Origin: Candidatus Methanofastidiosum methylothiophilum
GTDB lineage: Archaea > Methanobacteriota_B > Thermococci > Methanofastidiosales > Methanofastidiosaceae
Assembly (NCBI GenBank): GCA_001587595.1
Contig: LNJB01000001.1
Span: 55,727-89,167 of the forward strand
DNA length: 33,441 nt
Direction of reading: 5' to 3'
Shown: piece after piece, positions 9,659 to 22,016 of the stretch
Numbering within the stretch: the first letter of the stretch is position 1
Layout: each line of letters starts with the position of its first letter
Program-made: the position numbers and the translations under genes
The notes under the pieces: generated by a model
Databases searched by the model: none
What the model was told of the DNA's origin: nothing
The model's input: only the letters and a program-made list of their open reading frames with translations

Positions 9659-9907
9659 TAAACCTTTTTTATCTATAGTGCTTTGTTGCATGATTTCAGC
9701 CAAACAATATCATCCCTAATCTGTTCCTTCTTATACACTTACTGTTGCAGCTTGTCATAGGGTTTTGGACCATATTTTTGTTTATTTGAGTTCCGCTCTT
9801 TATCTCAAAAAGCGTTTAATAATCAAAAAAATGCAATACAGCTCCATATTGAAATATTTTTCATTTATGGTGCCACTTGTTTAGCACTATGGAATTAGAA
9901 GAGTTTA
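9659..9907. repeat. Diverged repeat, copy A (relic of a mobile element?)
   Basis: This gene-free stretch aligns along its whole length with 21157-21401. Shared blocks include TTGTTRCATGATTT, AGCCAAACAA, TTGCTTGTCATAG-like, and TCAAAAATGCAATA-type sequence, in the same order. Its ends form an imperfect inverted repeat (9659-9682 against 9883-9907, about 18 of 25 positions, with ATAGTGCT and TAAAC exact). On the minus strand both copies can encode VWLKSCNK near the left end, followed by a stop close to the terminal repeat. This suggests the C-terminus of a lost transposase, but the family is not recognised. Confidence 0.6.
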
Positions 9908-17261: not shown

Positions 17262-18380
17262 TCAATCTTTTAGAAGAAATTCATCTAGTACGTCTTTTGC
17301 CTTTTCTCTGTTTTCTTGGTGTTTTGTGATAAATTTAACAAGTTTCTCACTTAACAGATTTTTACACTCTCCGCAGAATACCTCTCCACTCTTACATCCA
17401 TCGTGTATTTCCTTTATCTTTTGATTGTCCTCTTCAAAAATGAAATATAGATACTGGTAGATTGTACATACCCCAGGATTGCCACCTTTTTCTTTATGTT
17501 CTTTTACGGTCTGGCCACCGCCAGTAAAAGCTCTTTTTATTTTTTTATCTACCTCTTTTGGAGGATCAATTGAAAAAATTGCAGTATCGCCCTTTGATGC
17601 TGACATTTTACCACTTGGGCCTTCTAAACCGGGAAGGAACATATTGTGTATTGCAGCAGGCTTATAATAGCCTAGTTTTGGTGCAACATCACGTGCAATC
17701 CTCCAATAAGGATCCTGATCAATGGCTGCTGGAATTAAAACTGGAACATTATGCCCTTTTAAGATTGAAGGTAAAAAGCAAGGTGCAGTCTGGACAGACG
17801 GAAAAAACATTATACCAATATTAGTTGAATTCTTAAATCCAAAGACTGCCTTTGCTGTAGATGTCGTTACATTTTTTGCAACCTGTATCGATATTTTATA
17901 CATAGTTTTAGCATAATCTATATTGGAAAATATAAAAGTTTTTTTGGGATCAAATCCTAAAGCTATTACATCAAGTGCATTTTCATAGGCAAAAGTATGT
18001 GTTTGTTCAAGTGTCAAATCTGGCCTCATCAGGAATTTTTCATCATCAGTCATCTGAAAATAAAACTCACAATCAAATTTATCTTGAAGCCATTTACAGA
18101 ATATCCAAGGAATTAGGTGTCCAATGTGTGTATGACCAGAAGGCCCCCTTCCGGTGTAGAGTGCAAATTTTTCTCCATCTTCATATTTTTTTAAAATCCA
18201 TCCAAGGTCTCTGTGTGAAAAGAATAATTTTCTTTTAAGGAAGGGATGCAAATCCCCTGTATATTTTTTTATTGTAGTTAATAATTCATCAGTAAGAACA
18301 TCAGTACCAAATTGTTTAATGAGCTTATTATAGTCAATTTCTCCCTCAACTTCCCAAGGAGTGACAACTGATTCGTCCAT
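17262..18380 (-). CDS. trpS: Tryptophanyl-tRNA synthetase, archaeal/eukaryal type
   Basis: A 372-residue class I aminoacyl-tRNA synthetase that charges tRNA-Trp. The HIGH motif reads HIGH at 85-88 within GRGPSGHTHIGHLIPW, and the KMSKS loop reads KMSAS at 258-262. The N-terminal TPWEVEGEIDYNKLIKQFG segment and TDDEKFL mark the archaeal/eukaryal form. Length is normal for archaea. It is the last gene of a minus-strand run trpB2 - NAD-kinase-like gene - trpS, with 36 nt after the middle gene, so it is probably co-transcribed with the enzyme that makes tryptophan from indole. Confidence 0.96.
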   Translation of the reverse strand: MDESVVTPWEVEGEIDYNKLIKQFGTDVLTDELLTTIKKYTGDLHPFLKRKLFFSHRDLGWILKKYEDGEKFALYTGRGPSGHTHIGHLIPWIFCKWLQDKFDCEFYFQMTDDEKFLMRPDLTLEQTHTFAYENALDVIALGFDPKKTFIFSNIDYAKTMYKISIQVAKNVTTSTAKAVFGFKNSTNIGIMFFPSVQTAPCFLPSILKGHNVPVLIPAAIDQDPYWRIARDVAPKLGYYKPAAIHNMFLPGLEGPSGKMSASKGDTAIFSIDPPKEVDKKIKRAFTGGGQTVKEHKEKGGNPGVCTIYQYLYFIFEEDNQKIKEIHDGCKSGEVFCGECKNLLSEKLVKFITKHQENREKAKDVLDEFLLKD

Positions 18381-18416: not shown

Positions 18417-19520
18417 TTAATCTTTCCTTATTTCCTTTCTTTGTGCCATCCTATAACTACATATGACAAGAGTTTTTCCGGATAACATATCATCAAGCTC
18501 TGCATCACCGGTGTCAACAAGTAAAAATGGCGTATTTTCAAGTTTTTGTGGTGTTGCTATGATTATAATATTGTCTTTCCCGATTTTTCTTAAAATCTGG
18601 CTCGAAATCTGCTGATTTCCTCTGCCAAAAACAAATCCCTGTGCACCAATAGGGCTTACTATGATCTTTACACTTTTTTCATTTTTAATAAGATTTAAAA
18701 TGTTTTTTTCATTAACATCACTTGCAATCAATTTTTCATCTTTTATCAAGTCTACTCCAAGTATAGTCTTTTTTATACCCATTACTTCTGCAATTTTTGC
18801 TGTTGTAGATCCGGCACCAACAATATATAGTGACCCATCAGACATAAATTCGCTAGCAAAAACTGCTATGCCTTCCTTTGCCATTTCTTCATCGTGACCC
18901 TCAAACAAAGACTTTGCATCTTGAATCAAGTGAGGAATATAAGGTGTTTTTAAATAACCATATAATTTCATCTTAAATTTATCTGCCCTATAACTCTCTT
19001 CATCTATATCCAATACATCAGAATCTTTATATTTCGAACTACCATCTAAAAATGCTTTAAGAATATCTGCTGCTGCTTTAGGATTAATTGCAAATACAGA
19101 TGAAAACATTTTTACTCCTGCAGGAATTCCAATTACAGGTATTTCTGTAGCTACTGCTTCATATATATCTCTTGCAGTTCCATCACCACCACAGAATATA
19201 ATTATCTCAACTTTTCTCTTTTTGAATTCTTCAATTGTCTTTAGAGTATCTATCTTACTTGTTAATCCATTAACTGAATACACTACTTCATATTGAAGCC
19301 CCTTGTTTTTTATTGGGTCTTCTCCCATCTCACCAGAAGGAACTAAAAACAATGTATCTTTTATATTGCCGAGAGACTCAAGGAATATTTCAGCTCTTTT
19401 TGATGATACTTTTTCAGCACCAAGCGCTAAAGCTTTTTCATAGAGGTCATCTGTTCCTTTTAATCCCACTGATCCCCCCATCCCGGAGATAGGATTAATT
19501 AATAATCCAATAGTTTTCAT
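18417..19520 (-). CDS. ATP-NAD kinase-like protein (COG3199 type)
   Basis: A 367-residue soluble protein of the NAD kinase/diacylglycerol kinase superfamily, in the COG3199/AcoX-like group. It opens with IGLLINPISGMGG and has the nucleotide-binding IIIFCGGDGTARDIYEAV (GGDGT at about 111-115), then IPVIGIPAGVKMFSSVFA and GAGSTTAKIAEVMG. Function is probably phosphorylation of NAD or a related molecule, but this subgroup is poorly characterised. Two ATGs are adjacent; the second (19520) is chosen because GTGAT then sits 3 nt upstream, as in other genes here. It lies between trpB2 (29 nt away) and trpS (36 nt). Confidence 0.88.
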   Translation of the reverse strand: MKTIGLLINPISGMGGSVGLKGTDDLYEKALALGAEKVSSKRAEIFLESLGNIKDTLFLVPSGEMGEDPIKNKGLQYEVVYSVNGLTSKIDTLKTIEEFKKRKVEIIIFCGGDGTARDIYEAVATEIPVIGIPAGVKMFSSVFAINPKAAADILKAFLDGSSKYKDSDVLDIDEESYRADKFKMKLYGYLKTPYIPHLIQDAKSLFEGHDEEMAKEGIAVFASEFMSDGSLYIVGAGSTTAKIAEVMGIKKTILGVDLIKDEKLIASDVNEKNILNLIKNEKSVKIIVSPIGAQGFVFGRGNQQISSQILRKIGKDNIIIIATPQKLENTPFLLVDTGDAELDDMLSGKTLVICSYRMAQRKEIRKD

Positions 19521-19549
19521 CATATCACAAAAATAAAAAAAATGGAGGA

Positions 19550-20917
19550 TTAATCCTCCGTTATTTTTGGAAGTTTTTTAAGCGACTGTTTTACAAGTTC
19601 TGTAGGATATTCAAAGTCTGTTAGTTTTCCGTGAAGGTATAGTTCATAGGATTTAAGATCAAAGTGCCCATGCCCACTTGCATTAAATAAAATGACCTTT
19701 TCTTCTCCTGTCTGCTTACACTTTTTAGCCTCTTCTACTACAGATTTTATTGCATGTGCTGTTTCTGGTGCCGGTACATGGCCCTCAGTTTGTGCAAAAA
19801 GCATTGCTGCTTCAAATACTTCTGTTTGGTAGTAAGCTTGGGCTTCTATAATGTTTTGATCTTTGAGTGCACTTACTATCGGTGAAGCTCCGTGATACCT
19901 TAATCCTCCTGCATGAATACCTGGAGGAATAAAGTCATGACCTAGGGTGAACATTTTTGCAATTGGGCCTAGCTTAGTAGAATCCCCATAATCAAATGCA
20001 TAGAGACCTTTAGTTAAGGTTGGGCATGATTGCGGTTCAACTGCTATAACTCTTAAATCCTTTTTATCTCCTTTTAATTTGTCATGTAAGAAAGGAAAAG
20101 AGATGCCGGCAAAATTGGAACCCCCTCCAACACAGCCAATTACTATGTCAGGATACCTCTCTTCCATTTTAAATTGCTCTTTTGATTCAAGACCGATTAC
20201 AGTTTGATGCATACAAACATGATTTAAAACACTCCCAAGAGAGTATTTTGTATCTTCGTGGGTGGCCGCATCTTCAACTGCTTCAGAAATTGCAATTCCA
20301 AGACTTCCTGGATGCTCGGGATTTTCTTTTAGAATAGATCTCCCTGCATTAGTCTTATTACTTGGGCTTGGAAATACCTCAGCACCCCATAAATGAATAA
20401 GGTTCCTCCTATATGGTTTCTGCTCATAACTTACCCGCACCATGTAAACTCTACATGTTATATCAAATAAGCTCGTAGCATAACTTAGTGCAGATCCCCA
20501 CTGGCCTGCACCAGTTTCAGTTGTTATAGTTTGTGTACCTTCCTTCATATTGTAGTAAGCTTGGGGTACAGCTGTATTTGGTTTATGGCTGCCTGCAGGA
20601 GAAACTCCTTCCCATTTAAAGTATATTTTTGCAGGTGTTTTAAGTGCCTTCTCAAGCCTTATTGCTCTGTAAAGCGGAGAAGGCCTCCATACTGCATAAA
20701 TGTCACGTATTTCTTGTGGAATATCTATCCATCTTTCTTGCGATACTTCCTGTTTTAATATTTCCATTGGAAATAGAACTGAAAGTTCTTCCAATGTGGC
20801 CCGTTTTAAAGTTCGTGGGCTATATACTGGTGGCAGAGGTTTTGGTAAATCTGCCTGAATATTATACCATCTTTTTGGCATGTAGTTTTCGTCCAAAAAT
20901 ATTTTGGTTTTTTCCAT
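19550..20917 (-). CDS. trpB2: Tryptophan synthase beta-like protein TrpB2
   Basis: A 455-residue PLP-dependent enzyme of the TrpB2 class, longer than classical TrpB (about 400) owing to its N-terminal extension ([20 protein letters not shown] and onwards). The PLP lysine is K112 in [20 protein letters not shown] binds substrate, and [10 protein letters not shown] is the phosphate-binding loop. TrpB2 makes tryptophan from indole and serine without a stable TrpA partner. No trpA or other trp gene is in the window, so indole salvage is the likely use. GGGAGGAT 5 nt before the ATG is a strong ribosome binding site. It heads an apparent operon with the NAD-kinase-like gene and trpS. A candidate structured RNA lies about 100 nt upstream. 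Confidence 0.95.
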
Positions 20918-21013
20918 GTTTATCCTCCCGTTATTTCATTAATGTTTATAAAATATTTAATCTAATAAAAAAACTTCTAAAGATTTCTAGATGTTTATTT
21001 TATATATAAATTC
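20918..21013 (-). promoter_or_regulatory. Leader/promoter region of trpB2
   Basis: Two TATA-like sequences occur on the minus strand: TTTATATATAAA at about 20999-21010 and AAATATTTTATAAAC nearer the gene. A near-palindrome, TCTAAAGATTTCTAGA, lies between them around 20977-20992. Either TATA could serve trpB2, or the gene could be read through from the RNA element upstream. Confidence 0.35.
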
Positions 21014-21127
21014 CTATGAGTAAGCGTAAACCTAAATGTAGGTTCGCTTAGTATCGCCACCACCAAAATCTAAGAAAAGAGTCTTTTTTGACCATTTTGT
21101 TTGCATTGGATGGCTCTATGCTCATAG
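21014..21127 (-). ncRNA. Candidate structured RNA upstream of trpB2
   Basis: A 114-nt segment closes on itself. The outer stem CTATGAG/CTCATAG pairs 21014-21020 with 21121-21127. Stacked directly on it is a hairpin at 21021-21050 with 12 base pairs, a 2-nt bulge and a 4-nt loop. A second arm pairs 21056-21061 with 21108-21114 (one mismatch), 21064-21069 with 21094-21099 (6 bp), and ends in an A/T-rich hairpin around 21073-21089. On the minus strand TTATATAG near 21151-21158 would start a transcript at about 21129, almost exactly at the outer stem. No known RNA family was recognised. It may be a free RNA or part of the trpB2 leader; the strand is inferred. Confidence 0.4.
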
Positions 21128-21156
21128 TACCAAACACTAAGTTATAAATCCCTATA

Positions 21157-21401
21157 TAAGTCTTTTTGTTATGGATTTGTTACATGATTTAAGCCAAACA
21201 ACATTTAATTCAATTCTTCTTTTAGTTTTACACCAGTCGTTATTGCTTGTCATAGCGTTTGAATATATTTTTGCCCGTTTTAGCCCCCCTCTTTATACCA
21301 AAAGTGTTTGTGATCAAAAATGCAATACTCATCATATTAAAGTACTTTTAATTTATGGCGTTATTTTTTAGTGCTGATCCCTATAATTAGATAGATTTAA
21401 G
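21157..21401. repeat. Diverged repeat, copy B (relic of a mobile element?)
   Basis: This is the second copy of the 9659-9907 element, in the same orientation, with substitutions and small indels throughout. It includes a plus-strand open frame of 66 codons (21171-21371) that is broken in copy A and so is not a conserved gene. The minus-strand peptide VWLKSCNKS near the left end matches VWLKSCNKA in copy A. In both places the element lies immediately upstream of a minus-strand promoter. The terminal inverted repeat is weaker than in copy A. Confidence 0.6.
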
Positions 21402-21482
21402 TTTTTTAGTCTATTTATACAACAACAGGCACCCCATTACACTTCCAGAAGATATATAAGTAATATTTTAATAATTATATCG

Positions 21483-22016
21483 ATGAAGATATTAGTAGGC
21501 TCTAAAAATCCTGTAAAGATTGATGCTACAAGGGAAGCATTCTCTTGTTACTATAAGGATATAGAAGTAGAAGGGATTGAAGTGAATAGTTCAGTTCCTA
21601 CTCAGCCAATAGACGAAGAAACATTTGAAGGCGCTGAGCATCGTGCCAAAGTTCTAAAAATTTTTAATGAAAAAGCCAGAATAAATGCATCTTTTTTTGT
21701 AGGTATTGAAGGCGGAATTATCAATATTTATTCTAAGTGGTTTGGTATAGGGGCTGTATGTATAATGGACGACAAAGGCAACTCTGGATTTGGGGTTTCC
21801 CCAATGTTTGAAATATGGAATGATGCTATAGATGAGCTATTAGATGGAAGTGAACTTGGGGATGTAATGGCTGAACTAACTGGTGATATTGACATAAAAA
21901 GAAAGGGTGGGGCCATTGGTTTTTTAACTGAGGGAGTTGTTGAAAGAAAGGAACTATACGTATCTGCACTTAAACTAGCTATCGTCCCATTTTTGAAAAA
22001 AGATCTCTACTTTTAG
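21483..22016 (+). CDS. DUF84 inosine/xanthosine triphosphatase (YjjX type)
   Basis: A 177-residue house-cleaning enzyme of the DUF84/YjjX family, which hydrolyses ITP and XTP to keep damaged purines out of nucleic acids. The family pattern is plain: MKILVGSKNPVKIDATREAF, VNSSVPTQPIDEETFEGAEHRA, FFVGIEGGI, ELGDVMAELTG, KGGAIGFLTEG and a final VSALKLAIVPFL. Length is normal. The start follows an AT-rich promoter zone (AATATTTTAATAATTATATCGATG) with no clear ribosome binding site, consistent with a leaderless mRNA. It is followed 57 nt later by the DUF3783 gene on the same strand. Confidence 0.93.
   Translation: MKILVGSKNPVKIDATREAFSCYYKDIEVEGIEVNSSVPTQPIDEETFEGAEHRAKVLKIFNEKARINASFFVGIEGGIINIYSKWFGIGAVCIMDDKGNSGFGVSPMFEIWNDAIDELLDGSELGDVMAELTGDIDIKRKGGAIGFLTEGVVERKELYVSALKLAIVPFLKKDLYF

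Follow-up and report, generated by a model that had tools for sequence, protein, structure and literature searches.

The 114-nt segment upstream of trpB2 in the uncultivated, methane-producing archaeon Candidatus Methanofastidiosum methylothiophilum quite likely forms the 5′ leader of a transcript of trpB2, NADK and trpS, where it would function as a tryptophan (Trp)-responsive leader-peptide attenuator. The sensing part of this element, in which the position of a ribosome would read the supply of charged tRNA-Trp, is well supported by sequence comparisons, and its output is probably termination at a downstream U-tract. The features that lead to this proposal are collected in Table 1, where positions refer to the window, by which we mean the whole stretch of 33,441 nt of DNA that was analysed.

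Table 1. Features of the trpB2 leader and the genes that follow it, in order of transcription
Feature	Position	Strand	Evidence
BRE/TATA-like element AAAGACTTATATAG (AAAGATTTATAAA in relatives)	21152–21165	−	Conserved in nine genomes
Folded leader with outer stem P0 (21121–21127/21014–21020)	21014–21127	−	98% of P0 cells paired
Leader-peptide ORF, MSIEPSNANKMVKKDSFLRFWWWRY and stop, 25 codons	21048–21125	−	Translation; start, frame, WWWRY and stop kept in 9 of 9 orthologues
Stem P1, GCCA (21111–21114) with UGGC (21056–21059)	21056–21114	−	Invariant, nine genomes
Three consecutive Trp codons TGGTGGTGG	21057–21065	−	Invariant in all nine genomes
Hairpin A, UAAGCG...CGCUUA	21021–21050	−	96% of stem cells paired
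Hairpin T (core UCUAGA 20986–20991/UUUAGA 20976–20981) and U7 tract (20967–20973), candidate terminator	20965–21003	−	Conserved, compensatory change
Shine-Dalgarno sequence GGGAGGAT of trpB2	20922–20929	−	Conserved
trpB2 (TrpB-like PLP enzyme)	19550–20917	−	NCBIfam NF009057/TIGR01415 above cut-off
ATP-NAD kinase-like gene (NADK), second in operon	18417–19523	−	Pfam PF01513
trpS, tryptophanyl-tRNA synthetase, third in operon	17262–18380	−	TIGR00233 and NF008927 above cut-off

Gene content of the trpB2 operon

Relatives of the TrpB2 protein with 90–98% identity come from Candidatus Methanofastidiosum/Methanofastidiosia genomes, and the order and spacing of trpB2 and trpS are kept in relatives wherever the contig permits. 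TrpA was detected in only one of ten congeneric genomes, and a TrpB1-type homologue is present in only two genomes of the genus. Because TrpA is missing from nine of the ten, TrpB2 is here probably an enzyme of indole salvage. An earlier note on this DNA had described the genes as ones for making and charging Trp; with TrpA missing, the cluster does not make Trp de novo. Between trpB2 and the NADK-like gene, the coding strand has a T8 run (19535–19542) at which transcription might terminate within the operon. Elsewhere in the order, second TrpB2-like copies in family f2 (L157 and L163) have one in-frame TAA each and are either pseudogenes or assembly errors.

A Trp-codon ORF within the structured leader

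No protein gene had been thought to explain the segment. This view fails, since an ORF of 25 codons occupies 78 of the 114 nt, and its C-terminus reads FWWWRY followed by the stop. Nine genomes of the genus include the beginning of trpB2, and all of them keep the ORF, WWWRY, a stop codon, the hairpins and the TATA box; the contig of the tenth ends inside trpB2. Across these genomes the peptide has 24 or 25 residues, and the sole indel within the ORF in the nine-genome alignment is one codon (3 bases). The 124 alignment columns after the stop hold 19 gap runs, and the length of most of these is not divisible by three. In one genome (L017), the loss of one base at the stop codon converts TAA to TAG, and the matching base is lost from the opposite arm, leaving hairpin A one base shorter on each side.

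The N-terminal codons drift between genomes, and hardly any change affects the final twelve. Changes in the first half of the peptide show no codon-position bias (8, 6 and 7 of 13). Furthermore, synonymous sites within WWWRY are conserved as well, and RNA constraint alone could therefore explain part of the conservation. A drifting N-terminus combined with an almost fixed end would be expected of a cis-acting leader, in which distance and regulatory codons matter and the peptide product does not.

The genome has 22 occurrences of the sequence TGGTGGTGG, 20 of which were assessed (the leader site and 19 others). Among them, the leader site is the only clear WWW in an intergenic start-to-stop ORF. 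Seventeen of the others coincide with a long ORF in another frame, one is in frame in a long ORF and the last, located where a contig ends, is ambiguous. Since a short peptide with WWW is encoded, we take the RNA most probably to be a leader that is translated, and not a structured RNA without any coding function.

Conservation and linkage to trpB2

A covariance model of the element matches the nine genomes once each and none of 106 other genomes searched in the phylum, 105 of which lie outside the genus. The promoter and leader stay with trpB2-NADK-trpS while the upstream neighbour differs. Specifically, the neighbour in the window is a divergent inosine/xanthosine triphosphatase gene, and the sequence before the promoter in L011–L017 looks like the final part of a protein gene, which its translation suggests to be phosphoglycerate mutase. 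An element that is conserved, has its own promoter, is tied to trpB2 and is present once per genome supports the earlier suggestion of a cis-regulator for the trpB2-trpS cluster. We judge the accompanying alternative, a free small RNA, to be less likely, and the overall interpretation given in the earlier note is partly supported.

In the closest relative (L024), about 2 kb (605–2666) with ORFs of 273 and 75 amino acids separate the leader from a DUF84 gene. An uncharacterised intergenic repeat (21176–21358) adjoins the leader promoter in the window; it is about 72% alike to the intergenic stretch at 9682–9870, and a further partial copy is found on contig C12 of the same genome. The possibility that the leader segment is itself a repeat or mobile element was rejected, as a search of its own genome gave one full match and no second copy.

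Comparable leaders were also sought at other loci. WW leaders before trpB2 in 74 other archaeal loci amounted to scattered noise only. Other families of the order had no WW leaders linked to trpB2 or trpS; the two WW ORFs that did turn up there stand alone, over 300 nt upstream. Within the genus, no leaders with F or H runs precede pheS and hisS.

Promoter and fold of the leader RNA

A TATA-like box (AAAGACTTATATA, or AAAGATTTATAAA in relatives) is located 34–36 nt upstream of the ORF start. The usual archaeal spacing between TATA box and transcript start would place the latter about 5 nt before the ATG, and thus at the foot of the outer stem. A start at this stem had been predicted previously from the minus-strand TATA box, which lies where the earlier note put it and is conserved in nine genomes. 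Unlike trpB2 with its conserved GGGAGGAT, the leader ORF has no Shine-Dalgarno sequence and is predicted to be practically leaderless. Almost all archaea mix leaderless and Shine-Dalgarno-led mRNAs (PMC7531240).

The minus strand of the segment has a minimum free energy of −31.1 kcal/mol compared to a mean of −18.8 for shuffled sequences (z −4.08), and none of 200 shuffles is as good. The plus strand folds nearly as well (z −3.43), owing to the inverted repeats that make up the segment. The three-way-junction-like fold proposed in the earlier note was recovered on the minus strand with all of its parts, namely the outer stem of 7 bp (CUAUGAG/CUCAUAG), the bulged hairpin and a second arm of consecutive helices. 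Each of the nine orthologues also beats its own shuffled versions (sense z −1.85 to −4.70). Standard pairs fill 96% of the cells of P0, P1, H1 and hairpin A in the nine-genome alignment, versus 31–50% when the partners are slid. Double changes affect two pairs of the leader helices, plus one pair in the downstream hairpin; covariation is modest because most helix pairs never vary.

Several elements of the ORF are embedded in this structure. The AUG start codon sits within P0, P1 pairs part of the Trp codons and the UAA stop codon provides the first three bases of the 5′ arm of hairpin A. A known Rfam family was considered as the identity of the element and rejected: Rfam covariance models run over the window gave only a tRNA at gathering score and no match for the element, Trp_leader included, and a search of 20850–21550 with an E limit of 5 gave a single match, a chance one outside it.

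Ribosome position and a candidate termination site

The influence of a translating ribosome on the leader was simulated by masking a ribosome-sized stretch in the fold, with the A site set at each Trp codon or at the stop. With the A site at Trp1 or Trp2, hairpin A is predicted to form with a mean pairing probability of 0.76–0.78, and this value falls to 0 at Trp3 or the stop. The AU-rich hairpin T, located upstream of trpB2, has a probability of about 0.83 in every simulated ribosome state. Because hairpin T is constant across these states, terminator/antiterminator exclusivity of the bacterial type is not predicted, and no mutually exclusive pair was found in the ribosome-masked folds. A classical 3:4 terminator competing with hairpin A was likewise rejected, there being none among the conserved stems or masked folds, and a scan for bacterial-type terminators found no GC-rich terminator before trpB2.

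Archaeal termination is not known to require a strong hairpin. U-runs of at least six follow 12 of the 29 genes in the window, compared to 5 of 29 upstream, and the U7 tract before trpB2 therefore resembles gene ends. L015 has a weak form of this tract, and L012, L014, L016 and L017 have a shorter one.

A model for Trp-responsive attenuation and its alternatives

In the attenuator that we propose, RNA polymerase would start about 5 nt before the AUG, and ribosomes would load at the 5′ end of the transcript without a Shine-Dalgarno sequence and translate the 25 codons. When charged tRNA-Trp is scarce, the ribosome would stall on the earliest of the Trp codons, where it would not quite reach hairpin A, and this hairpin could form. 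When Trp is plentiful, the ribosome would reach the stop codon within hairpin A, melt the hairpin and depart. Ribosome position would in this way set RNA structure and ribosome occupancy, and through them determine whether polymerase goes on into trpB2 or terminates at the U-tract, which lies about 50 nt upstream of this gene. The regulated targets would be TrpRS and, through TrpB2, the salvage of indole. The sequences themselves document the conserved ORF with its WWW and stop, the promoter, the helices and the predicted effect of ribosome position on hairpin A. We infer that the leader is translated, that ribosomes stall on it, in which direction the operon responds and that transcription ends at the U-tract, whether intrinsically or through an FttA-type factor on untranslated RNA. 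FttA has been credited with polarity in archaea (PMC12548453), and a putative FttA-type factor acting on ribosome-free RNA is our preferred agent of the output.

The same Trp-sensing leader peptide might instead exert its effect when stalling alters mRNA stability or trpB2 translation rather than termination. This reading, which we consider rather unlikely, would accommodate both the absence of terminator/antiterminator exclusivity from the masked folds and the weakness of the U-tract in some genomes. However, the best conserved stems show no anti-Shine-Dalgarno pairing near GGGAGGAT beyond short UUCUU pairs, and the leader stop is 130 nt away from trpB2, beyond the archaeal translational-coupling distance (PMC12548453).

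Two further explanations dispense with the leader peptide as a cis-acting sensor. The strong fold, the near-invariant nucleotides (synonymous sites included) and the lack of an Rfam match could all belong to a purely non-coding, riboswitch-like RNA that binds Trp or indole and carries the ORF by accident. Such an RNA is improbable given that the indel is in frame, that start and stop are kept, even as TAA becomes TAG, that WWW precedes trp genes and that the promoter is positioned at the AUG. Still more improbable is an action in trans, either by the peptide or by the leader transcript as a small RNA with separate targets, in the manner of rhizobial peTrpL/rnTrpL. Trans roles are known for bacterial leader peptides (PMC7298713), and leader RNA could build up after termination; against them, the N-terminal residues vary freely between genomes and the element is a single copy that is always 5′ of trpB2.

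A similar arrangement upstream of haloarchaeal trpS

A lead towards a possible further case in archaea, which is not proof of one, comes from haloarchaeal trpS genes. The H. volcanii gene (HVO_A0127) is listed with a 23-residue uORF in its long 5′ UTR (Babski et al., PMC4983044, Table 2), and the section of that paper on the trpS uORF does not discuss attenuation. A conserved uORF (MVSTSxAxCWRWxxxxEVDSxAV) of the same 23-residue length precedes the plasmid trpS of three haloarchaea (L252, L253 and L257) by 164–166 nt, and its stop codon lies within the next hairpin. Four other haloarchaeal trpS genes (L254, L255, L258 and L259) have a 13-residue uORF with one Trp that ends in LWR or RWR. A TATA-like box is found 32–33 nt before the leaderless haloarchaeal uORF, at 32 nt in the case of the conserved 23-residue form, and the trpS leaders reside in strong hairpins (z −5.1 for one).

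These uORFs share with the Methanofastidiosum leader the TATA box, a leaderless short ORF with Trp codons, flanking hairpins and a location 5′ of trpS. They differ from it in having WRW instead of WWW and, in some species, the 13-residue form with a single Trp, and no sequence similarity was noticed. It is conceivable, although we hold this only tentatively, that archaea have their own class of Trp attenuator, with leaderless uORFs, structure near both the start and the stop codon and U-tract/FttA termination in place of a bacterial terminator/antiterminator. The Methanofastidiosum trpB2-trpS and haloarchaeal trpS leaders would then be independent examples.

Comparison with known systems

Leader-peptide attenuation of amino-acid genes is a textbook bacterial mechanism that needs ribosomes close behind RNA polymerase. 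If our model is correct, transcription-translation coupling controls genes in a second domain, with a eukaryote-like polymerase, and the operon would provide a concrete test system as well as an archaeal regulator of Trp supply other than TrpY or Tar. A 2010 survey gave leader peptides as shown only in Proteobacteria and Actinobacteria, to which it added Firmicutes (PMC2965389). Archaeal Trp regulation is little known, with the exception of TrpY and also Tar (2019 paper, PMC6737238). The parts of the open-access literature covered by our search describe no leader-peptide or ribosome-mediated attenuation in archaea, and the Methanofastidiosum element would provisionally be the first such attenuator in this domain.

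Like bacterial trp attenuators (E. coli trpL, the rhizobial trpE(G) leader with its WWW, and those of Actinobacteria), the element has a short leader ORF upstream of trp genes, with translation predicted here, tandem Trp codons directly before the stop and an overlapping alternative RNA structure. In contrast to them, it has an archaeal TATA promoter and a practically leaderless ORF, has no GC-rich terminator and no predicted mutually exclusive terminator and antiterminator, and its predicted targets are trpB2 and trpS, not an operon for de novo synthesis. Leaders of the tnaC type likewise encode a Trp-related peptide. The tnaC leader responds to free Trp and has a single key Trp, whereas the tandem Trp codons of the Methanofastidiosum leader suggest the sensing of starvation. 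TrpY (Methanothermobacter) and Tar (Thermococcus) also control archaeal Trp-related genes (PMC6737238). However, these regulators are DNA-binding proteins, whereas the proposed sensor in Methanofastidiosum is a ribosome on nascent RNA.
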